Part shown: in pieces, positions 1,452-41,837 of the stretch
How the letters are laid out: the number at the start of each line of letters is the position of its first letter
Position numbering within the stretch: the stretch's first letter is position 1
Assembly: GCA_001792895.1 (NCBI GenBank)
Contig: MARA01000012.1
Span: forward strand, 248,001-312,000
Reading direction: 5' to 3'
DNA length: 64,000 nucleotides
Source: Lentinus brumalis
Taxonomy: Eukaryota > Basidiomycota > Agaricomycetes > Polyporales > Polyporaceae
Notes under the pieces: model-generated
Told to the model about the DNA's origin: nothing
What the model saw: the letters and a program-made list of their open reading frames with translations, nothing else
Database searches by the model: none
Made by a program: the position numbers and the translations under genes

Positions 1452-4256
1452 TCAAGCTTGTAACTCGGGTTGTCCACGGAGCACGGCCTGCATGTTAGGA
1501 GGCAGGTCGGCGTGGATCTCTAGCTCCCACGGACCGGCGAGTTTGATACCACTGGTCAGGATTCTCTGTGGCGCGAATTGGATGTACGGAGCGACTTGAC
1601 CGGGCACAGGTCGGTCCCCGCGGTGCGTTGCGTCGAACCTCACAAGACTGGTCCAGAAGAAGTTCTGTGAACGTACAAAGGGCCGACACATGCTCAGCCA
1701 CGCGTCGAACGAATAGAAGAACATGCTCACCATGCCGAGAATGAACGGACCCTGGTCCTGAACTGACTCTGCGAAACAGGCCAACCGGCCGGGGAACCCG
1801 TCACTTGGATTCCAAGGGCTGTCGAGGAAGTCTTGCGCGCTGCACCTCAAGGTGGTGGTCGTTCCGAAAAAATCTTGGAATTCAAACAAGATGTCATGTT
1901 TGGAGAAGTCGCGTGCGTGGCGCATGAAAACGGCTCGCTGTGGATAGGACTGTATGTCGTTGTAGAACCACTGCGTCCATATTGCCTGTAGGACAGCTCT
2001 CGGTAAGACAGAGCACGTTGCGCCTGCATCCCATGTATTAGTATCGAGGTTGTGAGCTCATGTCTCGTAGCACTTACCGGAATCGAAGATGACGGAGACG
2101 CCTCCAGATGTCCCCGTGGTCGAAATCTCTCCCACTGGAATGCGCCTCGGAAACCACTCGAGGAAGTCGGATGTTTCGTAGTTGGGGAAATCGACCAAGG
2201 GTTCCAGCAGGGTTATGGAGAGCAGCTGCATAGTCCACCAGCGAAACGTTTGCACGTCTATGGCGTCAGGGAAGATATACAGCCGCGGCGTATATTCCGG
2301 GATGACGATTTTGCCGTTATATCCGAGGAACCCGCAAGGGGCTCCGATCCCGTAGTACAGGAAGCTTTGTTTTTAACGTAGAGCATATGGTTATAGCAAC
2401 CAAAAACACTGACACTCTGTGATTCGCACGAGCCAACGCGTACTCATTTGGTGGAAGCAGTCGCACCGTTGCGCACATGGGCTGTACGATATAAGAGGAT
2501 GCCAATGATACGTGGTATGAAGAGGAATGATAACCGACGTACCTTTGGCACAACCCCAGGGCCGTGGTTCAACACATCGAAGAACGTCTGTGCGGTGACT
2601 GCTCAGTGCCGTAGACCTAGACTTCGTATAAGTAGTATCTTACCGCTCTATCTTTGCTCCCGGCAAAGGACCAGGGCTGCCGCCACCTAGAGAGTCCTGC
2701 ATGAGACGACATTGAAGGCATTGCAGAAGACTAGGGGACAACACACCCAGGTACGCCCAACCCGAGCTTGCCGTCGACACCTTGAGTAGCCGTAGTAGTG
2801 TTCACAGCGTCCGCCAGGACCCGCGCAAATTGGAGTCTTTGATCTGGCAATGAGTGCTCTGACTGCCCAACGATCCAGTTCCAGACCGGTGCTTTGAACA
2901 GCAGATCCACGCCTGGGTTGGAGAACCATCGCTTGACTCCTGGTTACGACGTCGGTCAAGGGCTCGTATCCGTTAATCACGTAAAGACTCACTCAATTCT
3001 CCATTGTCCCCGTACTTCAGCATGGATATTTCTGCGATAGGCGCCGCGCTGGGAGGGATTGCTCGACGCCTTCTGACCCTCTGTCTCAACTGCAAGGGTA
3101 CATCCGACCAATCGGTCGTGATGTACTTGTGAGTCTCGTTGAGATTATCCGTCATTTCCTCTCGCAGGAGACGGACGAATTGAAGCTTCTGGAAGTTCTT
3201 CTCATACATCCAACTATCTCCGACTGTCAGAGATGATGCGAGGTGATGAACCGAATGTCACGCACAAGCTGCAATCGCCTATCTATGAATGTGCATGTGT
3301 TCGTGTCTCGGTAGTGACGGAGATTCACTCACCGGTATCGACTGCAAGTTTGTATTCTTTACCTTTCATCGGAGCCAAGTCCCACTCACTGTTGTCCAAA
3401 ACCTGGCAACGAACCATTAGACATTCTCCTGGAGCCCAGAGAAGACTGCAATTACGCACAAGGTTCACCGTATACACGAGTTCTGAACAGAAAGGATATG
3501 TCAGCACTCACAACAACGGCCCACGCCAATATGATACGTACCGTACACCGTGCTGCCGTCGTCGGATGGGTATACTTCATACTCAAAATTGCTCTGAATG
3601 AGCGACGCATTGTCGATGTCTTCGAGTTCTTTCTGAAAGTGATGCACTTGTTCGGCGGTGACCTGCGTCCGGCACATAGAAGAAACCTTGCGTGGCGCGC
3701 GTGCGGCCCAGGGCACGTTGTCTGTCGCCTTGTACAGCTCAGTACCGACATGTGCCAAACAGCAGATCGAAACTCACAGAGGCAGTGGGGCGTTTGTAGT
3801 AGCGGCTAGCGTGTATCGTCGACGGGGCCGAGGAACGTAGAGGATCCATCCGAGGCAATTTGACTGCTGGACTGCTATTGAGCTTCCCGGCATTCCCTGA
3901 ACATTGATTCAAGGCGGGACGCTGATTTGAACCGTCCGCATAGGGGGCGGTCTCGTCCGAGCCTGCGTGAGATGCCGGGATACTCCCCGAAGGACATACT
4001 CTTTGACGGAGGAGCTAGCCACAGGTGCGGAGCCAGTAGCGGGAGAGCCGGAAGTCGGAGTTGGATCACAAAGTACCCCGGCATACCTACTGTGCCGTGC
4101 TCTGCTCGCCTGGATTACCGCGCCATGTCAGTAAATACGATTAGCATGCATAAATCCATAGGAGGTACTCGCCAGTCCAAGGCTCCGCAGCTGATTTATG
4201 TCGCGTGCAGACGCAGTAGGAGTTTCTATGCGCAAGAGAAGACCTTCAGGCGGCAT
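1452..4256 (-). CDS. A1-like (pepsin-fold) acid protease, copy 1, with a likely frameshift
   Basis: About 12 exons on the minus strand, from ATG at 4256 (MPPEGLLL...) to TGA at 1452. It is recognised as a pepsin-type aspartic protease from weak but ordered signals: VDT at the exon 4 donor (~3343), a DGKLGLGVPG strand motif (~2750), IFDSGATCSVLP (second catalytic Asp, split by the intron near 2030), and FILG near 1745. There is no signal peptide; the first ~200 residues before the first Asp are S/T/A-rich and mostly unstructured-looking. Oddities: the first intron would start with GC (ctg|gcgagt) where the two paralogues have GT. The first catalytic motif reads DTVGDSW if the nearest in-frame acceptor is used. 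Exon 2 is one base short of copy 2 between about 3965 and 4020, which breaks the frame. Substrate and location are unknown. It is divergent from the F-box gene at 4841. Confidence 0.6.
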
Positions 4257-4840
4257 GGGCGCGGTGAATAGTGGTCCGGACTTGGGACTTCAGGGAGAGG
4301 AGAGCGCTCTGGGGATGGGTTGCCGCTTCAACGACACATCCCAGCTTTTATCTGCACAAACACAATTATTACGGTCATGGTGACGATGTGTTGGGGGGAG
4401 AAACAATCACATCGGACCGAACAACGCTCGGTCCCGCCGGCTCAAGCACAAGAAGTTCCAGGAAACGGACACAAGACTCCCCTTCTTCCCGGTCCTGGCT
4501 TACTGTGCTGCCCAATGAAATAAGGTGCTCTTGTTCTGAATATGGCTCCCAGAAGAAGGTAACGTACAAGAGCAAGTAGAAATGCCAGCGATGTTGAAGC
4601 CCTCAGACTGAGATTGATAAGTACAGATGTCGTGTCAATCCTGCGGGACAACACAAGGGCACCGTTCATAATTTCGTACTGGCAATGCTGCATCGGCAGT
4701 ATAGACAATAACGAGGAGGAGTTGGAACAGAAGAAGGAGGAGGCGCTGACTAAGCCTCGGTCTTGTCGTGTAAGCGCTGTTGACCAGGTCATGATGGCCG
4801 CTTGCGGGTCGAACCCCTTCCTCCAGGTCTCTCCTCCGCT
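4257..4840. promoter_or_regulatory. Shared intergenic region of cassette 1 (protease leftward, F-box rightward)
   Basis: 584 bp separate the two start codons, so both promoters must lie here. The last ~95 bp before the F-box ATG hold two blocks also present upstream of the third-cassette F-box gene: gactaagcc-cggtcttgt and taagcgc-gttgaccaggtca (4748-4790 here; reverse strand near 38245-38310 there). No convincing TATA box was picked out. The small ORFs in this interval are not conserved between cassettes. Confidence 0.45.
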
Positions 4841-6716
4841 ATGCGCTCTGTAAGGAAGAGAGTTGCCTCCTTCATAACGCTACTTGTATCTCGGAAACGA
4901 CGGGAAGTCTTACCTCCTTCTCGCGAGGATGAAGAACCCGAAGTCTCTCCGCTACATTCATCTCAAAGGGCTCCGCACACGTAAGTGCCGCTGCATATTC
5001 AAGAGATACATATCATCTAATCAGACTCAATGACAGCCTGGAAACACTGAACTTAGACGTTCTTCGCGAACTTGCGTCCGTTTTGCGACAAGAACGGGAG
5101 ACGAGTGCGCTTAAAGCTCTTGCCTCTTGCTCTCGTGGGCTTCGCGAGACGCTATCTCCTGTGCTCTTCTATCACGCTTGGTATTTCTCTGGATACGATG
5201 AGCACGATCCTCCAGAGGCGGTGCGATATCTCATCCGGTTAGTGCATTATTCTGTTTCTGCCTCGAGTGATGCTGACAGGGCGCCCGAGGAAGACGCCTC
5301 CGGGTCAGGCTGCGCATCGAAACCAGCGTCGCTGCCCAACTCTTTATGTCCATCTTGGGACGCCTACCGAACCTCGCTGCGATAACGTTTGACGCCGGAT
5401 TTTGCAGTGCAATGGACATCATCAAGCGTTGCCTTACCCTTCCTCATGTCACGTCCATCACATTCACCGAAGAAGCAAACACGTTCACCGCTAACGAACC
5501 TCCCTCAACACTTAAGGTGGTCGCCAGTTCGCCGATACCCCTCACCAGCTTCTCCTTGATCATGCCCGTCTGGCGAGAGCAGCTCTTCCAACTTCATAGA
5601 GTCACGCCAGAGACGCATTTCAAACGCGAACAAGAGTGGTTGTCTGCGCTTATTCCCGGAATGGCGAGGACTGTGCAGCAACTTACAATACCTATGGAAA
5701 CCTCGCCAATATACGCCATGGCTGACCTATCGTGGCCGAAGCTGCAAGACCTGTCCATACGCGGCCGCTACTCCAGTGTGGAGCAGAGACAAGCACTTGC
5801 ACGGTTTCTTGCGTCACTACCTCGCTTACGCACGCTAATGGTGACAATTTGCAGGCGCGGTCGCTCCGCCCGCCCCCCAATACTCGGGACCAGCAGCACG
5901 TCTCGTACGACAATAGCTGGGCTCCGCTCCCTTACTGTTGCTTACCCGGACCCAGACGACAACATCTTCTCCATCGACGCAACTCACCTACTCCACCTGT
6001 CACTCTGCGACGCTCCGCGCTTCTACCATGATCGTTCCAAAGATGACAGAGTCTGGAGCACATTCGCCATACCGATCCTCAGCTCCGCCGAATGCCTGTC
6101 TATTCTGCGACGGATGAACATGCCCGCGCTCTCCAGCCTCGAACTTGTCTATCTCGCAGGTACTGCCGGCGCCGATGACGAGCTCCTCTCCTACGTCGCG
6201 CAAACCTTCCCGCATCTCTCGCGCCTCGAATTGCACAGGTATCGCGCAAACCGGGAGGAGGTCGTCGACTATGTAGGCGTCGTTGTTGAGCTGTCTCTCC
6301 AAGCACTCGTCTGACACCCTTTCCAGGCACATATCGCTGAGATGCTTACGGCAGCGCGTGGTCTCCGTAGCGTGCGGCTCAACCTTGACTTCCACGACGA
6401 CATCGGGCCGTACAGCGATTGTGCTGTATCTGTCGGACGGGAATGGCAGGCGAAGTTCCGGGAAACCCGCGGCCCAGAGATCGTTGCGATCCTGGAAGCG
6501 TGTCCGTGGCTAGAATATGTGGAGCTCCTGTACCACGACCACGCATCGTGGTCCTCAAGGTGGACCACATTCCCTACATCGCGATACCCCGGGCCTCGCT
6601 TCATCGACCCCGATGACGGCAGCACTCGGTGAGTCACTTGCGCTTGGTTTGTCGCCTTGTCTTCGTCTCATCTCCTCTTCAGTGATTCCCAACCGATTCC
6701 GGGTCGGGGGTGGTGA
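4841..6716 (+). CDS. F-box-like/LRR protein of cassette 1 (551 aa)
   Basis: Five exons: 4841-4980, 5037-5237, 5294-6272, 6327-6628 and 6683-6716, joined in frame and giving 551 residues. The basic N-terminus (MRSVRKR...) is followed by a LETLNLDVLRELASVLRQE / ALASCSRGLRETLSPVLF segment. This has the spacing of an F-box-like helix pair, though the family is divergent and I do not see a textbook F-box. The rest is leucine-rich repeats ending in CPWLEYVELLYH and PTSRYPGPRFIDP. Start and splice sites are supported by two paralogues (11429-13208, 36335-38207) with identical 201-nt and 979-nt exons 2 and 3. The exon 3 donor is gtaggc, weaker than gtgagc/gtaagc in the paralogues. The role as a Skp1-linked adaptor is inferred from the family resemblance only. 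Confidence 0.75.
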
Positions 6717-7780
6717 ACCGTCCGCCGCACAGCCTGTAGCGTCGCTGCGGTTCCGTAATGCTTGTGCTGTCCTGCCTATTCCCCGTGACTCTGTTAGAAA
6801 TGTGCGCACATCCATCTGTCACTCGAGACCCAGCTGATGACGTCCCGTCAGATACCACCATATCTGTATTTTATGACCCAGTGACATTCTCTGCGATAAT
6901 CGCGACCACAAGTCATGTCACATATGATACAACGAGTATATGATCCATGCGTTACATTGTAGAGTGCGTTCACGAACTTTGTGTCAAGCTGTCGACAGGC
7001 TCAGAAACGGCGGCCTCGCTCGTCTCTGCCAATACTGGGTCGTCGCGCGTCGCGCTCGGCACTCGTCTAATCCCCCAAATGTTTCAAGCGCACCCTGACA
7101 CTTTGTCCTACTAATTCACCTTCCCTATCCACCACGTCAGGCTAACAGTACTGATAACCATGCCCTCCGCCGTGTCAAATGACTCTTCCAAGGTAGACAT
7201 GATGGCATCGATGCATGTGGACTCTTGCGACCCCGCACGACGGAAGGTAGTACATGACTACGATAGTACCTATTTGAGATGAGAGAGAGCAATGTGCACG
7301 ATCAACATTTGAACACGCTCGGACGTCCCCATCGCCTGAGAGGGCGGCTGCACGCGCCCATACACCATCTCCATAACGATGCGAATGCGGCCCCCATCCT
7401 CGGCCGTCACGCTTGATCACCCCGCCGGCACGCAGGGCGGGGATGGTGTACTGCGACGCGACAACCCCTTACTGGAAATCTGACACATTAGCGTTCCGGA
7501 CTGTACGGCAATTCTTTTCTATAGCACTGTGCGCGGGATATGACCGCAGCGGCGTCGGACGTAAACGACCATAGCAGGAGGGCACTCCCGCGGAATCGCT
7601 GGAGGCGAGCGCAAACGAAAACGCACTGAGTATTCTCTCTAATGATGCGGGCCGACGCAATCATGGCCTGTGAGACAGCTTGATTCACGGGGTATATGAA
7701 TACATGCGTGTAGAGGAGTATCTGGGAGCTCCGCCGTCGGAAGAGATCAGGAGCCGGGGGAGAAAGTCCAACGTTCGCGT
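6717..7780. other. Spacer between cassettes 1 and 2
   Basis: About 1.06 kb between the ends of the F-box gene and the next protease gene. I see no conserved ORF, RNA or repeat; it presumably holds the two 3' UTRs. Short ORFs here have no counterpart in the third cassette. Confidence 0.5.
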
Positions 7781-10635
7781 TCAGGCTTGCAACTCGGGTT
7801 GTTCGCGGAGCACGGCCTGCATATCAGGAGGCAGGTCGGGATGAATCTCGAGACTCCAGGGACCTGCAAGCTGGAAGCCGTCGGACAGGATCCGCTGTGG
7901 GGCGAGCTGCATGAACGGTTTGGCTTGTCCGAGCATGGGCTTCTCTCCGCGATGCGTCCCGTCGAGCCTCAGGATGCTGGTCCAGAAGAAGTTCTTGCCA
8001 GCGTTGACAACGAGTCAGCCACGCCGATAAACATGAAGCGATCCATGCTCACCGCGCCCAGGATGTAAGGTCCTCCTCCATGTCCAGGATCCGCAGGGTC
8101 TCCTGTGGCCTCTACGAAACAGGCTAGCGACCCGCCATATCCGTCGTCCGGTTTCCAAGGGCTGCCGAGAAATTCCTGCGCCCTGCACCTGAAGGGAGTG
8201 ATGGTTCCGTGCAAGTCTTGGAATTGGAACACGACATCATGCCTCGAGAAGTCGCGGAAGTGGCGCAGAAAGACGACATCGCCGATGGGATAATTACGGA
8301 CGTCAAGCTGGAACCACTGGGTCCATATCAATTGTAAGACGTTCTTGGGCAGGACCGAGCAAACGGAGCCTGGATCATGAGCCGTCGCAGCGGTTTTTGT
8401 CAATGAGGGTCGCAACATTTGAGGCCGTAGCGACTTACCGGAGTCGAATATGACGCGAACACCAGTCGAGGCTCCTCGTGGCAAGCCTTTTCCCAAGGAA
8501 ATACGCCTCGGCATCCACTGCAGCGGGTCCATTCCCGCATGGTCTGGGCTGTCGACCAGGGGCTCCAGCAACGTTATGGACAGGAGCTGGAGAGACCACC
8601 AGTTGAAGTCGTGCTCATTGAGGAGATCGGGGTAGATATACATCTTCGGTGTATATTCCGGGATTCGAATCTTGTCCTCTACGAATTCAAGGAACAGACC
8701 GCACGGCGAACCGACACCGAGGTACAAGAAGCTCTGTCTGTGGAGTTCGTCAGCCTATAAAGCATCGCACAGCAACAAACACACTCACACTCTCTTGTTC
8801 GCGCGAGCCAGCTGGTATTCATCTGGCGGAAGCAGTCGCATCGTTACGCACATGGGCTGCATGGTCACAACGGTATCGTTTTACTGGAGGCAACGGGGTG
8901 ATAGATATGGCTTAGGACGTACTGTCGGCACAAGGCCAGATCCATGGTTGATTATATCGAAGAACGTCTGGGAGATGACTGGTCAGGTTTCGTACACTTT
9001 ACTAGTCTTCGGAAGTGTACGCACCGCTCTGTCCTTTCTTCCGGCGAGTGACCAAGGTTTCCGCGACCTGTCGTCGGATTACGCCTCATCAGTTCGGACG
9101 TGTGAGGCTGCACGAAAGCAGACTGGCAACATACCCGGGGACTCCCAATCCCAGGTTACCATCGACTCCTTGGCCGGCGGCATCCGCGTTGACAGCATCC
9201 GCTAGTATCCGCGCAAATCGGAGAGTATGGTTGGGTGAGTATGACAACTGCCCATTGACCCAGTCCCAGATCGGTGCTCTGAACTGCAGGTCCACGTTTG
9301 GGCTGGATAGCCACCGCTTGACTCCTACATGTTCCGTCAGTAAAGGGAGGATTGAAGCAGTAGTCGAGACACATACTCAACTCTCCGCCGTCTCTGTACC
9401 CAATTATGCCCCATTCTGCGATCGGCGCAGTGCTGGGAGGGACCACTCGATGTCTTCGACACCGTTGTTGAAAGTCCAAAGGTGTGTCAGACCAGTCCCT
9501 CTGAGTGTACCGGTAATGCATGCCATCCACCACTTCCTCTGGAGGGATCTGAACCCGTCCAAGCTGCCGGAAGTTTTTCTCAAAAAACCAGCTTCAAGAT
9601 CTATCAGCCAACGTTCGAAGAGGGAAATTTCACATTCTCACGCACAAGCAAGAATCGCCTATCGAGGAATGAGCATGTATCCATTATTAAAGGAGGGTAG
9701 AGCACTCACCAGTGTCGACGGCAAGCTTATACACTCGCCCCTTCTTGGGAGCCACGTCCCATCCATCGCCATCCATGACCTAGGGTGCGAATCTCAGCTT
9801 CAATTCACAAAGCGAACGCAAATAGCGCACCAAGTTCACGGTATACCACAATTCTCCTGATGAGAGGCGAAGTGAGTATCAAAGACTACTCACTGAACCA
9901 GGAGAGTGTGTACTCACCGTGCAGTCTTGCATCGTTGGCCGACCGATAAATACCATGCTTAGGCTCGAGCTGAATGAGGGACGCGTTGTCTATATCCTCA
10001 AGTTCGTTCTGAAACTGCACTACTCGTTCGGGTGTGATCGGCATCCGGCACCCAACAGAGAGCATGCGGGGCGCGTGCGCCACCCACGGCATGCCGTGTG
10101 TCGCCTAGGAACAGTCAATGAGTACCGACATACGTCAAGGAATATACTAGAACTTACGACCGGGGTGCAGCGTTTGTATGGGGAAGGGGAAGGCACGCCA
10201 TTCATAATGATACGGTAGGGTTCCTTGATTGCGATACCGTTGAGTATTCCAGTAGCATGTTCTGAGGTAGCAGCGTGTTCCAGACTGTCAGGAGATCTCA
10301 GAGACGAGCGGTCCGTGAGAGGACTCTCGTCCGGTCCAACATGGGTCGCGGTCTTGTTCCTGATGACCGAGCCGCTTTCCTCGGAGGAGCTAGCGGCAGC
10401 CTCTGGCTCAGTGACGGGAGCTCCGGGGGTGGAGAAAGCTTTGCTTCCCTGGCCAGTGTACCTGCTGTGCCGTGCTCTGCTCGACTGTGTGATATTGCGT
10501 CGTATCAGCGAATGAAAACCAAGGGGCGTATAGTAGGCTATAAGTACTCACCAATCCGATGCCCCGCAACTGTTCGACGTCATTTGAAGATGCAGTTGGA
10601 GTCTCTACGATCAGGAGCAGACCTTCGGGCGGCAT
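7781..10635 (-). CDS. A1-like (pepsin-fold) acid protease, copy 2
   Basis: Minus-strand multi-exon gene from ATG at 10635 (MPPEGLLL...) to TGA at 7781. It has the same exon order as copies 1 and 3: a short first exon with a normal gtgagt donor, then a disordered S/T/E-rich exon beginning SSRARHSRYTGQ. These are followed by THGMPWVAHAPRMLSVG, the VDT at the next donor (~9715), GVDGNLGLGVPG (~9150), IFDSGSVCSVLP (second Asp, ~8440) and PYILGA. The C-terminus (ELEIHPDLPPDMQ-type, ending ELQA) is nearly identical to the other copies. The join between exon 4 (GAC ACT G|gtgagt) and the exon starting at the WFFEKNF segment is off by one base with canonical sites. Copy 2 may therefore be broken at its first active-site motif, or may use a splice site I did not find. 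The remaining exons join in frame. Confidence 0.62.
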
Positions 10636-11428
10636 TATGGGCTGGATCAGACTAAGACACGATGGAGGTTCTGGCAGCTCCCGCCGCACCTCTCAGTATT
10701 TATCTGGAGCAGCAGAGTCGCAATGACCATGGCAAACAATGGATAATCGATCTCAGCGGAGCAACGCTTGATCCCGGTCACAACAAGCTCCACGAAGCAA
10801 ACGCGGAAATGATCAGACTCTTGTGACGAGCAGTCCCTAGCTGTACAGAACAATAGCGTGTCCTTCTTCTCCGCAGAGGCCTTGAATTTCTAGAAGCCGG
10901 CTCGGATGGATGTCGTTGTTTGCGACGCCATGACTTCCTGTAAACAAATCAGACGCTAGTGTTAGTGGATACGTAGTCCGGCAACTTGAGTGTCCATGAA
11001 CAAGAAGACTGACATAGGTGCGAAATTCAAATCGGTCTCGCTTCAGCTCCTTCGCCCTGTCTTCCCCACATGGCACATACTAGATACGAATCACACTGCG
11101 TGCCACCGGACCAAGCTGGATGAGTATACGTTATACTTACTTACTGCCCGCCGTTGTCCGACAGGTCCGTGCCAAATCTTGGCGTTGATGCCGGCCGCCT
11201 GGAGTAGATCTATCTGCATCCAGACAAGAGCGTGCATCAACGTCCACGCCGACGATTTCGCAATAGACAATAAGGAGAGTCGGATGCGGAGGACGAAGAG
11301 ATGTGCAGGCTGATTAGGCCGTAGCGCTCAGTGGTGCTCTTGTTGCAGCAGCACAGCTTGTACAGGCGCCGTGTCCTGGCGGCGCGCGAGCCACTCCCGA
11401 CCTCACTTCGAAGACCCACTCACTCCCC
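10636..11428. promoter_or_regulatory. Shared intergenic region of cassette 2
   Basis: 793 bp between the protease start (10635, leftward) and the F-box start (11429, rightward). It must contain both promoters. The blocks shared by cassettes 1 and 3 upstream of the F-box gene are not clearly preserved here, in line with this F-box copy being the most diverged of the three. Confidence 0.4.
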
Positions 11429-13208
11429 ATGATGCGCTCTGCAAAGAAGAAAATTACATCCTTTCTATCCCTCCTCATTTTTCGCAGACGTCGAGCCCGA
11501 ACTTCACTGATTTCTCCTGATGAAGAACACGAAATTGCGCCGACGCCACTGGCACAGTTGTGTCGAAAACCTCCTCCGACGTGAGTTTATGTGATATACA
11601 CCAGATCGTTTGTTTTAACATTGCCCAGCTTTGATAGCTTGAATCTAGACGTTCTTTATGAGATAGCATCGGTGTTGCGAGAGGAACGGGAGAAGACTGC
11701 GCTTGCAGCTCTTGCCTCCTGCTCTCGTGCGCTCCGCAGAACGCTATCTCCGGTTCTCTTCTATGAAGTCCGGTACCTTACTGGCTATGATGAGAATGAT
11801 CCTCCGGAGGCAATTCGCCATCTCGTCCGGTTGGTGTATCGTTTTGTCTCCGCACCGACTGTGCTGACATCGTTCTGGATAGACGTCTCCGTGTCGAGCT
11901 CCGCATGGAACACAGCGCGGATGTCCAGCTCTTCATGTCCATCCTCGGCCGCTTACCGAATCTCGCTGCCATTTTGTTCGAAGCTTCATTTCGCAATGCG
12001 ATTGACGTCGTCAAGTATTGCCTTGCTCGTCCTCGGATCACGTCGATCGCATTCGACCGTTATGCAAGCACGTTCACTGGCTCCGAGCCACCGGTAGCAC
12101 TGAACACGATCTTTCATGCCCCGGTCCACCTTACCAGCTTCTCCTATGTTGTTCCTCTCTGGCGAGAACAGTCCTGGCAACTCGCGGGATATAAGCCCGA
12201 GATGTTCTTCCTACGCGAAGAGAAGTGGCTATCCGCGCTTGTCCCCAGGATGGCGAACACCATCCAGAAACTTACACTGCCAATCGAAACCTCACCAATC
12301 CTAGCAATGGCTGACCTATCGTGGCCTGCGTTACAGGAACTCTCGATATGTGGGCGATATCTCAGCGAAAAGCAGAAAGAAGCACTTCCGCTCTTCCTTT
12401 CGTCCGTTCCACGATTGCGCAAGCTTTCCATCACAATCTCCAGGCTTGGTCCCACTACCCGCCCTCATATACTGGGTCCCAGCACCGCCTCTCACAAAAC
12501 CATGACTGGACTGCGCTCCCTCACCATCGCCTATCCAAAACCTGACGACAACATCTTCTCGATCGATGCCACTCATCTCTCCCACCTATCCCTCCGCGAC
12601 TACCCCCGATTCTACCATGACTGCGCCAGAACACCGGTAGTGACCAGCATGTTCACGAGGCCAATACTCCGATCCGCCGAATGTCTGTCTATCTTGCGAC
12701 GGATGGACATGCCCGAACTCTCCAGCCTCGAACTCGTCTACCTCGCAGACACCGCTGGCTGCGACGACGAGCTCCTCACTTACATCACGGAAGCCTTCCC
12801 GCATCTCTCCGAGCTCGAGCTGCACAGGTACCGCGCCAACAGAGAGGAGGTTGTGGACTACGTGAGCACCATACCGTCGTTGCGAGACTTCTCAATCACT
12901 CTTCTGACACCCCGTGCAGGCGCACATCGCAGAACTGCTCGCCGCAGCGCGTGGCCTCCGCAAGATCCGCCTCAACCTGGACTTCCACGACGACCAGGGC
13001 CCGTACTGCGGTCGCGGATTCAACTACAGCATATGGCAATCGACCTTCAGGCACCGCGGTCCTGAGATCGTCGAGATCTTGGAGGCATGTCCGTGGCTGG
13101 AATATGTAGAGCTCTTGTACCACGCGTACAATGGGTCAAGGTGGACCAAATTTCCCACCTCACGATACCCTGGGCCTCGCGTCGTCGACCCGATGACGGC
13201 ACCACTTA
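11429..13208 (+). CDS. F-box-like/LRR protein of cassette 2, with C-terminal frame change
   Basis: Exons 11429-11580, 11629-11829, 11883-12861 and 12920-13208; a second in-frame ATG at 11432 fits the paralogues better. Exons 2 and 3 are exactly 201 and 979 nt, as in the other two cassettes. It has the same basic N-terminus, SLNLDVLYEIASVL segment, LRR body and PTSRYPGPR ending. At the end it has GACCCG where copy 1 has GACCCCG (about 13188-13192), a single missing C that changes the frame. Unspliced, it stops at 13216. If the last intron is removed (acceptor before 13272), the shifted frame stays open to 13960 and adds ~229 residues unlike either paralogue. I regard the long extension as an artefact or lesion, not a true domain. 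Confidence 0.7.
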
Positions 13209-23722: not shown

Positions 23723-23727
23723 TAGAT

Positions 23728-30950: not shown

Positions 30951-31910
30951 CAGTCAAAAAAGCATCACGTCACTTGAGTGCAGCAAAGACGCACGCTATC
31001 CCAGAACCAGTGTGCGGCGGGGTCTGGAGGATGGGTACCGTCATCGCGACTCGAGCAGTCAGAGTGCGGGTATGGGTAGTCTTGGCTCATATAGGGACGT
31101 CGCGGCCAGGGCCAGCTCCGGGTGGGAGACGAGGTCAAGCCCGGGGAGTTTTATATGTGAATGCCCCGCGGCGGGAACGTGTACGAGCTCGCTCCGAGCA
31201 GGCGCAAGGCGATGAAATTAATCATGGCCAGCCACAGCTTCTGTCGCGTTGGAGTGGACAGAGAGTGCGACGTCCGAGCTTTGCAGTGGGTTGATGGCAT
31301 GGAAATCTGGTCGGAAGGAATAAACATGATGTAAACACGAGTGCGGAGGGAGGACTGACGAGTTTGATGCTCACCGACTTCCAGAATGCGCACAGGTCGG
31401 GACAGACTCGACGTATCTGGACGTGAGTGGGCGAACATGGGGAGATGTTACGAGAGAGGACCTGGGCGAAATATGTCTCGGGCTGTGTGGGAGCGTCTAC
31501 CTACCGTCGAGGGCAGTACGGGTGTGAGCGAAGCATTCGATCTCGAATTCGAAGTCAATGCGAAGGCGTACCGTGGGCATACCATGCACGCTGAACAGCT
31601 CACATGTCCGACGGTTCCCGGGCTGACATCAGAGCACAGAACAGGCAGGCAGCGCCCTTTCTGCCGGAGAGATCACAAGGGCTGTGTTCTGTCGTACCTT
31701 AGCCCGCCGTTATTGAACGCCCTGGGTAAGTGGGCGCCCTGGCCGACGCCCTGTCCTGCTCCGTTGAGATGATGATTTCGTTGGCCGGAACAATTCTGCA
31801 ACAGGCCCCATCCGGAGGGTCTTCCTGGAGCTAGAAGGCACCGAGCTCGTTGCAGAGGTGAGGCAAACGCGTGTTGCTTGATGCATGCATCGCCGGTCCT
31901 TCAGAGCATC

Positions 31911-32048
31911 GCTGTGTCGGATAGCTCTGTAAGATCTAAGAGGGGCGTTGGACGGATGAGTGCCAGCCAGATGTAGCTCGCTGTGTCGGATAGGTCTGTA
32001 AGATCTTAGAGGGGCGTTGGACGGATGAGTGCCAGCCAGATGTAGCTC
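31911..32048. repeat. 69-bp direct tandem duplication
   Basis: Two adjacent 69-nt units (31911-31979 and 31980-32048), each starting gctgtgtcggatag and ending cagatgtagctc, differ at only two positions that I can see. The unit contains an 'agatct(t/a)a' palindrome-like core. High identity implies recent duplication. Confidence 0.9.
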
Positions 32049-32565
32049 ACCGGTGCCGATACGAGAAGACGTCCGCGACTCGAAACGAACGTACAAGTTG
32101 ACGTTCGGGAGAGCGGGAGTCACTAGTCACCACTAGCACCGATGAGTTTCGCTGGCGTGGATATCCTGCAAAGCATTCTGAATCAGTTGGGCCGTTCATT
32201 TGAACACACGAGTTCCACTCTTTCTGAACTGCTTAGTGGTGCATTAGGAAGCTCTGCAGTCAAGCTCAAACCAATTGTTGTGATCATGAGTACTGGTATA
32301 CATACCTGTACTTTCAGTGTGCCAGGTAGGCCAGGTAGTATGACAGTGATGCCCAAGTGAGGCCAAGGCCAAGCAGGCCTCGTCGCAGGTAAGTAGACTG
32401 TAAGTTCATGTTATGGAAGCTAATGCCATAGGGGACCTATGAATAACGACTTAATCGAGGTTTCTTATCCAGGTAAGTAAATCATAGTAATGGAGTAACA
32501 AGATTAACACAAATCGGCTAGATTGAACCTTGAAGTCGTACCACTTCCACCCTTACTCCGCGCAG

Positions 32566-32612
32566 GTCGCGACTGCGACAACGACAACGACAACGACTGC
32601 GACAACGACCCA
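32566..32612. repeat. Imperfect (GACAAC)n microsatellite in a 5' leader
   Basis: Repeats of gacaac with two gactgc interruptions lie just upstream of the ATG at 32625. In frame they would read (D/C-N)n, but the downstream ATG is the better start because the family begins shortly after it. Confidence 0.7.
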
Positions 32613-32624
32613 CCTCTCTCCACT

Positions 32625-35599
32625 ATGCCTCGTGTTCCGTCTGTATCGCCCGCAACGGGCAAGCAAGTCCCCTCGCACTTTATACACACCGCGGAAGCTC
32701 AGTTCGTCGACAATGCCGGTCGCACTGTGCTCCTTCGTGGCATCAACCTTTCTGGCGCAGACAAAGCACCGGTTGGTGCACAGTCACAAACACTGGAGGG
32801 CTTTTGGGAAGCGGGAGAGAGCGGAAATACGAGCTTTGTTGGGCGACCTCTGAACCTCGACGACGGCTCCGCGGACGTGCATCTGGCACGCCTCAAGGGT
32901 TGGGGTTTCAACATGTTGCGTTATGTGGTTACTTGGGAGGCCCTTGAGCACGCAGGACCGTGAGTTTGTGCATTGGTGAAGTCAACAGAAACTTATATCC
33001 CTGCGTAGCGGGAAGTATGACCATGAGTTCATGGACTACACGGTCCGTGTCCTCCGGAAGTGCAAGGAGTACGGCTTCAGAGTGTATATGGACCCCCACC
33101 AAGACATCGTGAGTGTTTTCTCTACTCGCGACTCCGTAGACTTTGAGGGCGTTTGAATGATTCGCGAGGAGCATTCGGCTCCTGCCATGCACTCTTTCCT
33201 CTCGCGCTGTCGAGTGACAGCACCAAGGCGTACAGGAGCGTCTATGCAAGCTGAAGCATGTATAGTAAAGACTTGAAAGCTTGCTGGACTGCCACGCAGT
33301 ACTCGGAATCTGTCGATGCCATGCAATGGGTAGCGTCCGCTGCGGCACGAGCTTCTCAAGCCTCATGCAACCCTGCTGCGTGATCTCTGTCCTTATATGC
33401 TAACTCTGTGTTCATCTGCAGTGGTCGCGCTTCTCCGGAGGTTCCGGTGCACCATACTGGACCATCCTCGCATGTGGTATCAACCCACGTAACTTCACTG
33501 CGACCCAGGCTGCTATCGTGCACTCTGAGTACCCTACTCCTTCTGATCCGACACCCGCTGAACTCCCAGCCATGATCTGGAGCACAAACTACGGCCGTCT
33601 TGCGTCTCAGACCCTTTTCACGCTCTTCTTCGCCGGCCGGGAGTTCGCACCGAAATGTGTCATCGACGGCGAGAACATCCAGGATTACCTTCAATCCCAC
33701 TTCATCGCCGCCATGGGCCAGCTCGCAGACCGGATCCGTGATGCGGGAGACCTCGTAGAGGAGTGCGTCATCGGCTGGGACAGCATGAATGAGCCATTCG
33801 AAGGGTTTTGCGGTTACGCAGACCTGAACACGGTGCCGACGAAGCAGGGTTCTACGCTGAAGAAGGGCCCGTTCCCCTCCCCTGCACAGTCTCTCCGACT
33901 TGGCATGGGTACCGCTCAGACCGTTGATAACTGGACGTTCACGTCCATGGGTCCGAAGCGCGAGGGGACGGTCACCATCGACCCAAAGGGAAAGAAGCTC
34001 TGGGCGGACCCTGAGACCGAGCCCGACGGGGTACATCCGAAGTGGGGATGGAAGCGTGACCCGGGGTGGAAGCTTGGGACGTGCATATGGGCACAGCATG
34101 GCGTCTGGGATATCGAGAGCGGTACCGTGCTTGCGCCAGACTACTTCCGCTATTCCGCCAGCGGAGATGAAGTCGTCTTCATCGACGACTTCTGGCGACC
34201 GCACTTTCAGGCGTTCGCGACCCGTATCCGCGAGTCTCATCCGGAGGCCATCCTCTTCGTTGCTCCTCCTGTCTTCGCTCCTCCCCCTCAGCTGGACGAG
34301 CGCTATCTCAAAGGGCGGTGTTGTCTGTCAACGCACTACTATGATGGCCTCACACTTCTGACGCGTCATTGGAACTGGTTCAACGCGGACGCTCTGGGCA
34401 TCATCCGCGGCAAGTACTCCTCGAACTTACCTGCGGTGAGGATCGGCGAGAAGGCCATCCGCAAGTCGTTTCAGGAACAACTCGGTTACCTGAAGGACGA
34501 TGCTAAGATCCTCGGCGCGTACCCTACTATCATCGGCGAAATTGGCATACCGTACGACATGGATGGCAAGAAGGCGTACGGGTACACGGACGACGGCAAG
34601 TACAAGGGCGACTTTTCGAGTCAGCAGAAGGCGCTCGATGCGAGCATGAACGCCTCGGACGGGTCGAACGTGCTCAACTACACGATTTGGAACTACTGTC
34701 CGGACAATTCGCACCAGTGGGGCGATGGTTGGAACTTGGAAGACCTGAGTGTCTGGAGCGCAGACGACCTCAAGCCCACGTCACAGTACAGGATGGCTGC
34801 GAGTGACTCCTCATCGGCCTCCTTGCTGAAGAAGGGCCAGGCAAGTGTCTTTCCGTCCGCGTCCGCATCCAATGTCTCTCTCGCCACGCTGTCCCCTGGG
34901 GAGACCTCTTCCGACGACAAGACCCTCGTATCCAAGCGGTCGTCGCCATCATTTCTCTCGGACTGGGACAACGTCTACGACTTCCTCACGGACGGTGCTC
35001 GCGCGGTGAAGGCCTTCTGCCGTCCCTACCCCACCGCTGTCGTCGGCATTCCAACAGACATCCAGTTCGATATCTCGAAGGCGGAGTTCAAGCTGAAGAT
35101 CACCGTGCGCCCGGAGGATGCACCGCAGAGCGCGCGGTTGGGACTCTCATCTCCCGACTCCGAGAACCCGGATGAGGCGGAGCTTCCTACGGAGATCTAC
35201 ATCCCTCTGGTGCACTATGCAAGCGATAAGGTGCTCTCTGACGTCCAGCGCCAACTCTCGCCTGTGTCCGGCTCCGTTACCCCCAACGTCACAGACGGGC
35301 TCTTGTCCAAGTCGTCCTCCGACTCCTCTCGGTTCTCAGGTGACCTCACCGCGGACCCGCTCCGGCTAGCATCGTACGGCAACCCTCTTCTGTCGCTTGA
35401 CGTCGACGTGTCGGGAGGCCGATGGGCCGTCGATGGGCAGACGCTTAAGTGGTGGTATCCCGTACCCGCGACAGGACCCCGCGAGTACACAATCACCGTG
35501 AAGCGTGCGGGTGGTGTCATCAAGACGGCGGAGGAGAGCGCGAGCGCATCGGCCTCGTTCTGGAGATGGTGCCTGGATGGATGCTGTAGCGTGATGTAG
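32625..35599 (+). CDS. GH5 steryl beta-glucosidase / glucosylceramidase-like (EGCrP2/EGH1 type)
   Basis: Exons 32625-32959, 33009-33108 and 33422-35599 give 870 residues. The N-terminal motif [15 protein letters not shown], the [20 protein letters not shown] segment, and [18 protein letters not shown] (joined across two introns) define the GH5 barrel. The acid/base Glu lies in [11 protein letters not shown] and the nucleophile in [30 protein letters not shown] follows. A C-terminal beta-sandwich-like domain ends with cysteines ([12 protein letters not shown]), a possible palmitoylation or membrane-anchoring tail. Fungal homologues hydrolyse ergosteryl glucoside (EGCrP2/EGH1) or glucosylceramide (EGCrP1). 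I favour the steryl-glucosidase branch from the overall length and motifs. The second intron is 313 nt, far longer than others in the window. Confidence 0.9.
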
Positions 35600-36334
35600 G
35601 CGGTGGGTGGGAGGAGTTGTCGCTTTGCATATGGACATTGCTTTCTTGTAGTTTGATTGGAAACACGTATGTACTATAGACATCGGTGGATTGGAATCTC
35701 TGTTACGCTTCGCTCGTATTTCCGTGTGTATCGACTCCTCATGATCGTCGCGGCCGGAAGTGCGAATGCACGCGTATGATAGCGACAGGGATATTTGCAG
35801 GACGTCATCAGTCGATTGAAGCCCTCACCAGGTACGCATGTCTAACTCAAAGAGTCATTGAGCACCACGGAGGGCGTCCGTCGCAACTCGGAGTGGCTGG
35901 GCAGAGATGAGTTGGGTGAATCACCGCCCTCAGGTGCCGACTTGATCTTTATCGGAGGCATAGCTGTCAGCCCTTCTTGATCCCTCGAGTTCGTCATCAC
36001 CCTCTACTCGTACGACCAGCTGATGAAACTTACATCTCTGCCGGAAATGTCACGAACGACTGCCCGGAGGTATACAGAGAACGCAATGGCCGTTTATGGT
36101 GGATAACTTCGTGACATCGTGAGTAATAGGACTTATTGTGTCAAGGGGTATCGCAGAGTAGTAGAAGGATACAGCGGTGGTGGTACATATCTCATGGGAC
36201 GTCATGAGTAGTGCAGAAGAGCAGCAGGTGCGCACATGTCTTACAGAGTCGCCGGTGAAGGCTGGACGTCGGAAGGGCGTAAGAACCACAGCTGAGGCAG
36301 AGTACATGCTGCTCGGGGGAGGCTTTCCGGAGGT
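35600..36334. other. Convergent 3' spacer
   Basis: 735 bp between the GH5 stop and the end of the inverted F-box gene. No gene or repeat is recognised. Confidence 0.5.
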
Positions 36335-38207
36335 TCACCACCGACCCGGGATCGGTTCAGAATCACTGTAGAGCAGGAGGTGTCACTAAAAAGTGACGGA
36401 GTTGACGCACCGAGCACATGTTACTCACCGAGTGCTGCCATCATCGGGGTCAATGAAGCGAGGCCCGGGGTATCGCGAAGTGGGGAACTTGGCCCATCGT
36501 GAGGACCACCGCGCGTGGTACAGGAGTTCCACATATTCTAGCCACGGGCACGCCTCCAAGATCGCGACGATCTCGGGACCGCGGTGTTCCCGGAGCTTCG
36601 ACCGCCATTGCAATGCAACGGACTCATCACAATCGCTGTACGGCCCGTGGTCATCGTGAAAGTCAAGGTTGAGGCGAACGCTACGGAGATCTCGCAGTGC
36701 CGTCAGCAGTTCTGCAATATGTACCTGCAGGGCGGGTCAGCTCAAGTCGGACCAGGCACGTAAGTATGACGCTTACATAGTCAACGACCTCCTCCTTGTT
36801 TGCGCGATACCTGTGCAATTCAAGGTGCGAGAGATGCGGAAATGTTTCAGTGACGTAGGTGAGAAGCTCATCGTCGGCGCCGGCGGTATCTACGAGGTAA
36901 ACGAGTTCGAGGCTGAGAAGCTCGGGCATGTCCATCCGCCGCAAGATTGACAGGCATTCGGCGGGGCTGAGGATCGGTACGGCAAACTCGCTCCAAACAG
37001 CTTCGTCCTGGTTACGGTCATGATAGAATCGTGGAGCGTCGCAGAGGGACAGGTGAAGGAGACGTGTCGCATCGATGGAGAAGATGTTGTCGTCTGGGTC
37101 CGGGTAAGCCACCGTAAGGGAGCGGAGCCCAGCTATCGTCGCATTAGAGGTGGCTTTGGAACCGAGTAAAGACGGGCGGGCGGTACGACCGCGCCTGCAG
37201 AGTGTGACCGACAACTTGCGCAATTGTGGTATTGACGAGAGAAACTGCCGAAGCGCGTGTTTCTGCTCCTCGTCCATATAACGGCCACGTATCGACAGCT
37301 CCTGCAGTTCAGGCCATGTCAAAGCAGCCATCGCCAGCATTGGCGACGTCTCCATCGGCACGGTAAGCTGCTTGACGGTGCTAGCCATGCCGGGAATGAG
37401 CGCAGACAGCCACTTCTCTTCGCATTTGAAGGGCTCGTCGGTTCTGAGTCTCGCCACTCGGAAGAGCTGCTCCCGCCAAAGAGGCATGATGTAGGAGAAG
37501 CTGGTGAGGGGAGCCGGCGCATCGCTGATTGCGTTCAATGCTGATGGGGGCTCAAAAGCGGTGAATGTGTTTGCCCGTTGAGTGAAAGTGATGGACGTGA
37601 TGTGCGTAAGGGCAAGGCAACGCTGGATGACGTCTACGGGAGCGCAGAATCGGGTGTCAAATATTATCGCAGTGAGGTTAGGTAGGCGTCCCAAGGTGTG
37701 CATGAAGTGCTGGACAACTGCGATGCGCTCTATATGGACCCTGACTCGGAGACGTCTTTCTCGGGTACCCCATCAGCACCATTTGCTGCGGTGACATGAC
37801 AAGCCACTAACCGGATGAGATAGCGTATTGCTTCTGGAGGATCGTTCTCATCGCATCTACCGAGGTATCGAGCGTGACAGAGGAGCATGGGACGTAGTGT
37901 TTCGCGAAGCACGCGAGAACAGGATGCAAGAGCTTTGAGTGCAGTCGTCTCCCGTCCCTTCCGCAGCACGGAACCGATTTCTCGAAGGACATCTAAATTC
38001 AATGTTTCCAGGCTGTCGATTCATGATAGTCTCAATTGAACGTATCTCGCACATATGCCAGAGCACTTACGTGGGAGGAGGCCTTCGACTCGGTGGCTGT
38101 GGAGGAGAGACTTCGAGTTCTTCATCCTCGCATGAGATGTGGCCTCGTCGTTTCCGACGTAGAATCAGTGTCACAAAAGACGCAAGCTTCTTTCTTACGG
38201 AGCGCAT
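36335..38207 (-). CDS. F-box-like/LRR protein of cassette 3 (547 aa)
   Basis: Five minus-strand exons: 38207-38071, 38012-37812, 37755-36777, 36724-36429 and 36365-36335. They join in frame, with exon 2 at 201 nt and exon 3 at 979 nt, exactly as in cassettes 1 and 2. The protein starts MRSVRKKLASFVTLILRRK, continues LETLNLDVLREIGSVLRKG, and ends with PTSRYPGPRFIDPDDGSTR plus a short last exon (DSEPIPGRW) also found in cassette 1. The frame is intact throughout. The amino-acid match is closest to cassette 1. Intron positions are fully conserved, so the cassettes come from duplication of genomic DNA, not from retroposition. Confidence 0.76.
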
Positions 38208-38979
38208 ACTGAAGGAGAGTCTTGGGTGGAAGGGGACTCAAGGAGTCCGACACTGACCTGGTCAACGGCGCTTATAGTACTACACGTTTGCAACAACAAG
38301 ACCGTGGCTTAGTCAGCATGCCTCCTTGTCCTGAGGCAGGGACCCGCTCAGCTGGCTGACCTTCTTTCTGATCATTTTTTGCCGAGCATCGAACAAGGCG
38401 GACCCAGGCAGGGTTTCTCCCAGGCGGCAGTGTCAAGACCCAACCTACTTTCATTGACACTAAGTAACCCAGGGAACTTGAGTCTCAAATACCGGACCCG
38501 TTTGATTTACTTACTGTCAAGGAGGCTGTGGATGTCCCGAGCATAAGTATATCGGATTCACGGTGAGCAGGGAATATGAAGCTTTTGGTATTGCACACGT
38601 CACTGACTTTGTTTCACGTCCTAGGCGCAGGGTTCCGGCCCCCGTCGGCCGGCAAGCTCGTGCCAATAATTGTGCAGTAAGTCTCAGAGCATCGCGACAT
38701 CGCTTTTGGTTGTTCTCGAACATTATGTCACCCCAGAAATCGCATGTAGAACAAGATCTCCAAGTATGCAGCTTGGCCTTGGCCAGGACCGAGAAGACGG
38801 GCAGTTGCGGTGTCCGATGTGTGGACCTGGGCGTTGTCTCGTACCGCCCACCCTTCGTCGTCATGGTCGCCACCAATTGTATTCATACAAGTCAAATACC
38901 GGGCTGCATTTCTGAGGATGCAACTCACCCGCAACAGTGCCCTTCTCTCTCTGAAGTCTGCAAACCGATTCGCTGTCCA
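38208..38979. promoter_or_regulatory. Shared intergenic region of cassette 3
   Basis: 772 bp between the F-box start (38207, leftward) and the protease start (38980, rightward). Near the F-box end, on the reverse strand, it carries gactaagcc-cggtcttgt and taagcgc-gttgaccaggtca, matching the cassette 1 region. An open frame of ~139 codons runs in from 38563 and is contiguous with the protease ATG; I treat 38980 as the start because it equals the start of the other two copies. Confidence 0.45.
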
Positions 38980-41837
38980 ATGCCACCCGAAGAACTCCTC
39001 CTGCTCATAGAAACCCCAACCGCATCCCCGCGCGACGTGGATCAGTTGCGGGCTCTTGGACTGGTGCGTTTGATGCAAGACTGCCGGTAGACGAGTAGAC
39101 GGCGTACTCTTGCACTGCTGCAATACAAGTTCGGCAACCATCCGCTGATCCGGTATACTTGACACAATCTAGATGAGCAAAGCACGACACAGTAGATTTG
39201 CCGGCCGACAGCGCGGTTCAGCCTCCACTGCTGGCTCGCCCAGTGGCTCTGTCCGTCAGGGGAAGGACATAGTGGCTTCCGAGCCCGCCCAGTCGCATGA
39301 GACCACTCACATTGCGTACGGTTTACGTCAGCGGCACACCGATACACCGTTGCATGCTGCCCATTCAGACTGGGCAGCTGGGGGACTCAACCACGGCGTA
39401 GCGGCGAAAGTGCCTCAGACGGTTTCCATGCGTTTCACACCCCGTGCTACGATTCACGCTGGTCGCTCGTACAAACGCCATACTCCTTCCGTGAGTTGCA
39501 AACCGTCCCATGGCATATCCTGGTACTGACCCACGAAAGGTCGGGGATGCCATGCCTTGGGCGGCGCACGCCCCACGCATGCTCTCTGTCGGGTGCAGAA
39601 CGCATGTTACCGCCGAACAAGTGAATTTCTTCCAGGGGCAACTCCAAGACATCGACAACGCGTCGCTCATACAAAGCGGCTTCCAGTATGAGCGCTATCG
39701 AGGCGCCACGGGCAAAATAGGTCATGGTATGTATCACTATTGTGCGGGCCGTACTTGTCAGTGCTGACATCTCCTGTACCGTAGAACTCTGGTATACTGT
39801 CACACTTGTATGTTACCCGACTCTCTTCCCCGTTCGCGAGGAATATCTGACGTCTCGAGTCCGTCAGATTATGGACAGCAATGAGTGGGATTTGGCTCCG
39901 AAGAAAGGCAAAGAGTACAAGCTTGCCGTCGATACGGGTGAGCCTTTTTTCGTTTCCGCTGAGACTTTCATACGGGCTGATTCATCGTTAGGCGATTGCA
40001 GTTTGTGCGTGGTTCAATGTTTCATTTTCACGCGTCATTGCTAACGAAGGAGGTACTAGTTGGTTTTACGAGCAAAACTTCCAGCAGCTCCGATCCGTCC
40101 GTCTTCTACCAGAGGAAATGACGGGCGACGGCGCAACCCACAAGTGGATAATGAGAGATTGGTCTGATCTACCTTTGCAGCTGCAACAACGAGTTAGGCG
40201 GCGTGGAGTGATCCCTTACAGTGCTGCGCCTATCGCAGAAGTATCCATGTTGGAGTACGGGGACGGTGGGACGCTGAGTAACTCTTCCTGTGTATAAGTA
40301 ACCGATCTATCTGTTCACTAATGAACGGCATGATCAGGAGTAAGGAGATGGCACTCCAGTCCAGGAGTGGATCTGCAGTTCAGAGCACCAGCCTGGGACT
40401 GGGTTCACGGGGCATCGGAGTTTTCACCGACTCACCAACTCCAATTTTGTCGGGTCTTGGCGGACGGTGCGACCGCCGCCGTTGCTACCCAGGGCATCGA
40501 TGGCAATCTCGGTTTGGGAGTGCCTGGGTATGTCGTTTCAAAACTCTGTACTGCCTTCGGCGTTGGACCTAACGCAGGGATTACATAGCTGGCGGACGCC
40601 GTGGTCCTTGGCGGGAAAGAAGGATAGAGCGGTATGCAGTATCATGGTTTCTTGATTCGTCTGTGTCTCATCAAGTCTTCGCACAGACGTTCTTTGATGT
40701 GTTGAACTACGGACCTGGGTCTGTGCCCAAAGTACGTCGTATAACCATACCATACGTTTGCGATAACCCTGACACTGCACAGCCCATGTGCGCAACGTTG
40801 CGATTACTCCCACCAAATGAGTACGAGCTGTCTCGTGCAAATCCCAGAGTGTGAGTATTCCGGTTGCTACAGCTCTCCCTATACGCTAATTTCATATGCA
40901 GACAGAGCTTCCTCTACTATGGTATTGGAGCCCCTTGTGGGTTCCTTGGGATATTCGAGAAGATTGTCATCCCGGAGTATACACCGCGGTTGTATATCTT
41001 CCCTGACGTCGAACGACAGCATACGTTTCGTTGGTGGACTATGCAGCTACTGTCCATAACCCTGCTGGAACCAATGGTCCACTACCCCAACTACGCCAGC
41101 ACAGACCCGCTTAAGTGGTTTCCGAAGCGCATCACGTTGGGAGACATGTCGGAAACGGGGTCCCCCTTGGTATCCGCACCCTCTTCGACTCCGGTCAGTC
41201 CCTTCGGCATTGTCTGCTCGGAGATGCGCTGACGAACACGACATGATGACTTGGTCTACAGGTGCAACATGCTCCGTCTTGCCGAGAGCCGTCCGGCAAG
41301 CAATTTGGACGGAGTGGTTCGCCAACGACGCGCAGTCCTACCCATGGAACGAGCCCTTTTTGCGCCACAACCGCGACTTCTCCGCACATGACGTCTTGTT
41401 CGAATTTCAAGACTCCGCCGGAAGAGTCGAAACCTTGAGGTGCAGCGCTCAAGAGTTTCTCAGCAGCCCATGGGTCCCACTTGACGGATCACCCGGCACG
41501 TTGGCCTGCTTCGCGGAGCCTGATCATGACGATGATGAGGGTCCCTACATCCTGGGCGCGGTGAGCATGTTTTGCTACTACTTAGTTCCGGCCTGTGGCT
41601 GATCATATGGCCGCCCTTTCATAGAACTTCTTTTGGACCAGTATCGTGAGGCTCGACGCGACGCACCGCGGGGACCGACCAGTGCCCGGTCAGGCCGCGC
41701 CCTACATGCAATTCGCACCACAGAGAATCTTGTCTGATGGTTACAAGCTCGCCGGTCCGTGGGAGCTAGAGATCCACGCCGACCTGCCTCCTGACATGCA
41801 GGCCGTCCTCCGCGAACAACCCGAGTTGCAAGCATGA
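38980..41837 (+). CDS. A1-like (pepsin-fold) acid protease, copy 3 (~706 aa if frame restored)
   Basis: Twelve exons: 38980-39063, 39173-39490, 39540-39726, 39785-39937, 40050-40277, 40338-40527, 40589-40631, 40687-40731, 40783-40850, 40902-41193, 41262-41560 and 41625-41837. They total 2120 nt, one short of a whole number of codons. The missing base lies in TCCCCCTTGG at about 41161-41170, just before the second catalytic motif, where copies 1 and 2 keep frame. Pepsin-like marks: LWYTVTLV, VDTGGTSWF (first Asp near residue 246), GIDGNLGLGVPG (near 380), LFDSGATCSVLP (second Asp near 535) and PYILGA (near 635). The Asp-to-Asp spacing is longer than in pepsin. No signal peptide is seen, and ~200 N-terminal residues are disordered. 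Intracellular action and any link to the partner F-box protein are inference. Confidence 0.65.

Follow-up and report, generated by a model that had tools for sequence, protein, structure and literature searches.

Members of a probable pepsin-like gene family and of one F-box-type gene subfamily form an old co-inherited pair in Lentinus brumalis

In a stretch of 64,000 nucleotides of the Lentinus brumalis genome (the window, C24:248001-312000 in the 53.4-Mb genome), a gene for a probable pepsin-like protein (P) and a gene for a probable F-box protein (F) lie head to head in three copies, A, B and C. P and F are an old co-inherited pair: 14 out of 14 P genes found in the genome lie at most 2.5 kb from members of one F subfamily, and the gene trees of the two families agree in most supported clades. 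We give a probability of roughly 0.4 to the reading that P and F form a module of two genes, duplicated and passed on together, in which F would hold the linked P in check via ubiquitination. The features of the three copies, together with two further genes next to them, are the following.

7-1065, plus strand: second F-box-like gene (3' part only), facing P copy A in convergent orientation, recognized by its similarity to the gene at 42849-44606
1452-4256, minus strand: P gene, copy A, putatively pepsin-like (core 3849-1452, 13 exons, 575 aa)
4257-4840, no strand: spacer of copy A between both start codons, from the three-spacer alignment
4841-6632, plus strand: F gene, copy A, putative F-box/LRR type (4 exons, 541 aa)
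7781-10635, minus strand: P gene, copy B (core 10205-7781, 13 exons, 576 aa)
10636-11431, no strand: spacer of copy B, from the three-spacer alignment
11432-13216, plus strand: F gene, copy B (4 exons, 541 aa)
36425-38207, minus strand: F gene, copy C, inverted (4 exons, 538 aa)
38208-38979, no strand: spacer of copy C, from the three-spacer alignment
38980-41837, plus strand: P gene, copy C (core from 39428, exon plan as in A and B, frame break in exon 11)
42849-44606, minus strand: second F-box-like gene, convergent with P copy C (F-box-like match with E 5.3e-5, 23.4 bits, cut-off 24.3)

Comparison of the window with itself by blastn recovered the block three times: 1237-6948, 7603-13289 and, in inverted orientation, 36096-42048. 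Copies B and C gave one continuous alignment with 63% identity, and A and C were 68% identical on the P side and 73% identical on the F side. This bore out the initial annotation, which had described the head-to-head pair three times with the third copy inverted. The exon sizes of 201 and 979 nt that it had reported for F were exact in all three gene models (140/201/979/306 nt in A, 149/201/979/297 nt in B, and 137/201/979/300 nt in C). The matching P intron positions were also recovered: the P cores of copies A and B consist of 13 exons, and the 12 short GT-AG introns lie at corresponding places in the core models. A micro-exon of 13 nt is present in all three P copies (3266-3278, 9646-9658, and 39992-40004). 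It is located inside the first active-site motif and encodes the residues that directly follow the first catalytic Asp-Thr. In A and B, the spliced first motif has the same position and length as in P0001 and P0002, which are deposited models.

Because P0001 of Cerioporus (676 aa) aligns beyond the modelled core in the upstream direction, the P start was placed further upstream. Based on this similarity, it is probably located near 4256 (A), 10635 (B), and 38980 (C); the N-terminal exons between these starts and the cores were left out of the models. In exon 11 of P copy C (40902-41193), the reading frame breaks by 1 nt ahead of the second Asp motif. This exon has a length of 292 nt, compared with 287 nt in A and 299 nt in B. 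The break may indicate either a pseudogene or an assembly error. With the similarity-based P starts, the spacers between P and F comprise 585, 794, and 773 bp in copies A, B, and C. The sequence between the two start codons may be a shared promoter region, a function on which the alignment of the three spacers has no bearing.

Pepsin-type aspartic proteases (Pfam Asp, PF00026) constitute MEROPS family A1. The label "acid protease", which P had been given initially, is plausible, but the evidence for it is weak. P carries landmarks in the order typical of pepsins, i.e. DTG..W, a Y-G-D-G flap, DGxLGLG, FDSG...LP, and LGxNFFW. A pattern of chained motifs matched copy A and 0 of 200000 shuffles, which counts little because the pattern was designed with A in view. 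Better support for a pepsin-like identity comes from the remotest relatives, two on C115 and one on C2, which have kept both D[ST]G motifs; both are also present in A, B, P0001, P0002, and C73_275. The second motif is lost or changed in eight members (C73_247, C58_203, C93, C73_287, P0007, P0006, P0003, and P0004, with the readings TTG, QLG, DTC, DSC, DSA, and DNG among them), which argues against protease activity throughout the P family.

The Pfam Asp model scored below its cut-off with copy A (E = 0.016, 15.1 bits versus 19.9), had no match on copy B, and matched one of six database relatives weakly (P0001, E 0.093). A genome search with this model yielded no match on contig C24, and such a search is thus blind to the P genes of the window. 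When P was compared with the genome's own pepsins at the profile level, at most single motifs were aligned. No related sequence was found in the PDB, where the profile search returned a TatB protein at E 0.74, a chance match. AlphaFold2 models of P were unusable (mean pLDDT of 34.2 and 36.4) because the relatives were few (six and seven sequences), and Foldseek with the second of these low-pLDDT models gave 0 matches at E <= 0.001. P resembles pepsin-type proteases in the order of the landmarks and in the two motifs of its remotest relatives, but differs from them in scoring below the Pfam cut-off, in the size of its full-length relatives (554-676 aa), and in the loss of the second motif in several members. 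P is probably a pepsin-like protein and a putative aspartic protease. Inspection of the P N-termini by eye revealed no signal peptide.

For F, the designation as an F-box protein was likewise only partly confirmed. The alignment shows an F-box-like block at the N-terminus, LExLNxDVLRxIA...LASCSRxLRxxxSPxLF, which is conserved over 25 aligned rows, selected as rows with more than 25 filled places. UniRef names the F relatives F-box domain-containing proteins, and LRR models match F weakly, below their cut-offs. These three features resemble F-box/LRR receptors of SCF ligases. In contrast to such receptors, the Pfam F-box cut-offs were not reached: the model had 0 matches on the three F proteins of the window, and the relative P0033 remained below the cut-off with E 0.062. 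From the alignment and the names of its relatives, F is probably an F-box protein.

The number of copies turned out to be larger than the three initially noted, namely 14 loci genome-wide. A genome search with P copy A (E <= 0.01) yielded 11 P loci (3 on C24, 4 on C73, 1 on C93, 2 on C58, and 1 on C1). Three more, of which two lie on C115 and one lies on C2, came from a profile search of the fetched F loci. Both C115 genes were also retrieved with a P gene of C58 in a search that did not involve F (E 2.1e-7 and 7.3e-5), and the C2 gene came solely from the F-loci profile run (E 2.5e-4). Consequently, 13 of the 14 P genes were found by searches without F and are free of F-guided bias. Outside the known loci, no further P was detected at E <= 0.01 with copy A in the whole genome, or at E <= 0.1 with queries of the P0006, P0007, C115, C2, C73_259, C58_203, and C73_247 types; the match counts of the genome searches are lower bounds.

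In the genome of the window, no P gene without a nearby F was found (0 of 14), in agreement with the initial claim that the partners are kept together in every copy. The two features expected of a toxin-antidote system, tight linkage and a toxin that is not found without its antidote, were thus observed, with this genome as the scope. The orientation was not uniform. For 10 of the 14 P genes a divergent F lies within 2.5 kb; two of these P genes (C73_247 and C115_1408) also have a convergent F, which is the closer of the two. Within the same distance, the P genes of C1 and C73_259 have a convergent F only, and those of C58_203 and C58_500 have a same-strand F only. The P genes of C1 and C58_500 are fragments. 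The orientation bears on the view that P and F are an ordinary developmental pair, co-switched from a shared promoter in fruiting and acting in separate steps. The spacers of 585-794 bp in the window would fit this, as would Flammulina filiformis, for which 80 of 210 F-box genes are reported to be developmentally expressed (PMC7567395). However, the 4 P genes without a divergent F could not share a promoter with F, and we regard this view as very unlikely.

A genome search with F showed that its family is larger than that of P. P is located within 2.5 kb of 16 of the 27 tabulated F loci, and F without P is common. Eight F loci had no P in the fetched flanks (L018, L019, L022, L023, and L024, as well as L026, L027, and L029 for the upstream side only); the fetched set excludes weaker F matches on C48, C46, C59, C50, and at C1:3.04M. 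Two near-identical F genes, L015 (C58:199210-201077) and L019 (C58:237393-239226), differ in that one adjoins P and the other, judged within its 8-kb stretch, does not. The two have about 300 bp downstream in common, and L019 looks as if P had been lost or never received.

A chance neighbourhood in an F-box-rich genome was rejected. At 5 kb, the 27 tabulated F loci cover 0.6% of the genome, and 0.083 of 14 P genes would be expected near F, versus 14 observed. Even with 200 loci the expectation would be 0.618 of 14. The positions used for these counts were compiled by hand from the genome search results, and the genome contains 149 Pfam F-box-like places as a lower bound. A block of more than two genes was rejected as well. 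A tblastx comparison of the fetched flanks with the window revealed no third gene consistently common to blocks on different contigs, and A and C alone add the convergent second F-box-like gene. The other tblastx matches were short and of low identity and were dropped as chance, the listed E-values being sums over joined pieces. Some tblastx pieces lie next to near-duplicate F genes (L015/L019, L020/L021, L028/L029, and L015/L024).

The distances in the P and F trees were correlated. FastTree trees of 13 pairs gave r = 0.787, and a set of 10 pairs, which omits C1, C58_499, and C73_258, gave r = 0.914; in both cases, 0 of 20000 permutations reached the observed value. Careful maximum-likelihood trees were calculated for 15 pairs, 12 from this genome and 3 from other species. 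Common to both trees are the clades of A and C, of B and Cerioporus, of C93 and L. brumalis (contig 1109946), and of both C115 copies, as well as a five-row clade around C93. The trees disagree inside the C93 clade and over C73_246, C58_202, and the long branch of C73_258, and in the F tree the base of A, B, and C is not resolved. The matching topology that the initial annotation had proposed as a check is thus found in most supported clades. At the C1 locus, the P fragment is placed with C73_247 in the P tree, and in the F tree the convergent F of this locus is placed with the F gene that neighbours C73_247 on the convergent side. This mismatch is as expected if half of a block, P with the convergent F, had been copied.

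Ratios of dN/dS were calculated according to Nei and Gojobori, with exons 1-10 only for P comparisons involving copy C. They were 0.254 (A-B), 0.244 (A-C), and 0.204 (B-C) for P and 0.259, 0.255, and 0.234, respectively, for F. The dS values for P were 1.12 (A-B), 0.86 (A-C), and 1.49 (B-C), and those for F were broadly similar (1.00, 0.68, and 1.11). These results show that both genes are under purifying selection and have been maintained over a long time.

Agreement between trees indicates co-inheritance and does not imply joint function, since co-duplication alone would also lead to linkage and matching trees. Therefore, one half of the "functional module" proposed initially holds, namely that the partners are kept together (no P without F, agreeing trees), and the other half, the function, does not follow, as copying of whole blocks gives the same picture. 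Mere co-duplication is a real possibility and nearly as likely as restraint of P by F: P and F would belong to a block that is copied whole within an F-box cluster evolving by birth and death, and, apart from a shared promoter region perhaps, nothing would connect their functions. The clustering of the pairs is consistent with this, with three in the window and four P genes on 45 kb of C73, and so are F genes on both sides of P in several places, the abundance of F-box genes (at least 149 places), and the C1 locus, which resembles half a block, namely P together with the F that is convergent at the C73_247 locus. On the other hand, dS is about 0.7-1.5 even between the window copies, much older copies on other contigs are still paired although their other flanks are not in common, and F sheds P, yet P was not found without F.

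The variable active sites raise the possibility of a role in innate immunity, in which partly dead P proteins would bind foreign proteins or protease inhibitors as decoys and F would send the catch to the proteasome. P and F would then act on a common target and not on each other. Repeated duplication and the variability of the P active sites are in line with this, and a role in the innate immunity of nematodes and plants has been proposed for expanded F-box families (PMC12680543). However, whole-gene dN/dS gave no sign of positive selection, and we consider a decoy role rather unlikely.

Restraint of P by F, the reading that we prefer, would involve the following steps. P would be a cytosolic pepsin-like aspartic protease, degenerate in several copies and usually head to head with F. 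Within an SCF ubiquitin ligase, F would serve as the substrate receptor, with the linked P, the most economical target, as its substrate. A new P would be tolerated only when it arrives with its own F. Such restraint would account for the finding that P was not found without F while F occurs alone. The constant proximity of F to P, the correlated trees, the purifying selection, and the sharing of two genes only were counted in its favour, as was a worked-out parallel in nematodes. The 4 of 14 P genes without a divergent F (2 convergent, 2 same strand) were counted against it, as was Polyporus arcularius HHB13444, which is listed with seven F and no P. In addition, the loss of the second catalytic motif in several P genes would be odd if P needs restraint because it is active.

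An F-box gene tied to a harmful partner has precedents outside fungi. In Caenorhabditis tropicalis, the KSS F-box antidotes bind and degrade the linked toxins KLMT-1 and PZL-1, and the antidote phylogeny mirrors that of the toxins (PMC12680543). The P-F pair resembles this system in that an F-box gene adjoins its partner, the module is duplicated, and the trees mirror each other; the KSS F-box family is also described there as large and fast-evolving, a further likeness. In contrast, the nematode toxins derive from a tRNA synthetase and their binding, degradation, and killing were shown, whereas P is pepsin-like and known here from its sequence alone. The same paper mentions the rice F-box antidote HTA and the self-incompatibility F-box loci of plants, where an F-box gene is likewise tied to a harmful partner; those partners are unrelated to P, and killing or rejection was shown there.

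By analogy, the pairs could be poison-and-guardian or self/non-self modules, in which the protease would be harmful unless F marks it for destruction. Such a system would occupy at least 14 loci of this genome, some of which would since have degenerated to catalytically dead forms. The age of the pairs and the purifying selection on both genes speak against a young selfish element, and this is an unlikely, minority view.

In the open-licence literature of PubMed Central, no report of a P-F-type pair in fungi was found. The gene arrangement points to a subfamily of F-box receptors that may have a genetic tie to a single partner family, in this case a pepsin-like one. Mushrooms have very many F-box genes with mostly unknown targets, and a subfamily that so often adjoins one partner family would provide a candidate substrate per receptor. 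That P was not found without F, together with frequent F without P, is the pattern that a dependent partner and its guardian would produce.

P and F relatives on contigs of identical size were also found among database entries. In Cerioporus squamosus, P0001 and P0002 (P) and P0008, P0010, and P0012 (F) are on contigs of identical size (104316), as are P0005 (P) and P0015 (F; 14441). Contigs equal to the base were inferred to be one contig. Two L. brumalis pairs, P0006 with P0022 (1000096) and P0007 with P0026 (1109946), share contigs of identical size in the same sense, and on contigs of about 1 Mb such co-occurrence says little about the closeness of P and F. For P0003 and P0004 (contig 318662) no F is in the list, and P0005, which is nearly identical to P0004, has one. 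The database lists contain seven F relatives and no P for Polyporus arcularius HHB13444. F relatives are also present in Daedaleopsis, Earliella, Ganoderma, Fomes, Lenzites, and Trametes, genera in which word-based database searches found no P. Judged from the database relatives, the window falls into the Polyporus/Lentinus group. A profile search beyond Polyporaceae returned the same 7 P proteins; with 7993 candidates scored and a dependence on shared words, it does not demonstrate absence of P elsewhere. Among the named entries of the searched database, the P family appears to be confined to Cerioporus and Lentinus.

Further F-box-like genes surround the pairs. The second F-box-like genes at 7-1065 and 42849-44606 are 56% identical at the DNA level and 36% at the amino acid level over 352 residues, and the paired F genes are unrelated to them in this comparison. 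An F-box-like match at C24:247440, just upstream of the window, precedes the gene part at 7-1065. Convergent-side F-box-type genes also stand next to several other P genes, e.g. at C73:249671-250995 and C115:1409940-1411234. Beside P copy C, the segment 41993-42357 is a second version of the 5' portion of the neighbouring F-box-like gene (44271-44637), with 64% DNA identity, and an F-box-like match with a stop was found inside this fragment at C24:290029. Two F-box-like ORFs of other subfamilies are located at 50780-52585 (E 1.9e-8) and 19397-20185 (E 1.5e-4, below the cut-off), and the same F-box-rich stretch contains a gene with a HET (heterokaryon incompatibility) domain at 60394-62640 (E 3.1e-12). 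A gene with a glycoside hydrolase family 5 C-terminal domain lies between the blocks (33518-35599), and a Suv3-type helicase gene follows them (54911-56431). Lastly, the window contains a 69-bp tandem duplication with 97% identity (31909-32046) and a CTTA-type low-complexity stretch (56656-57005).
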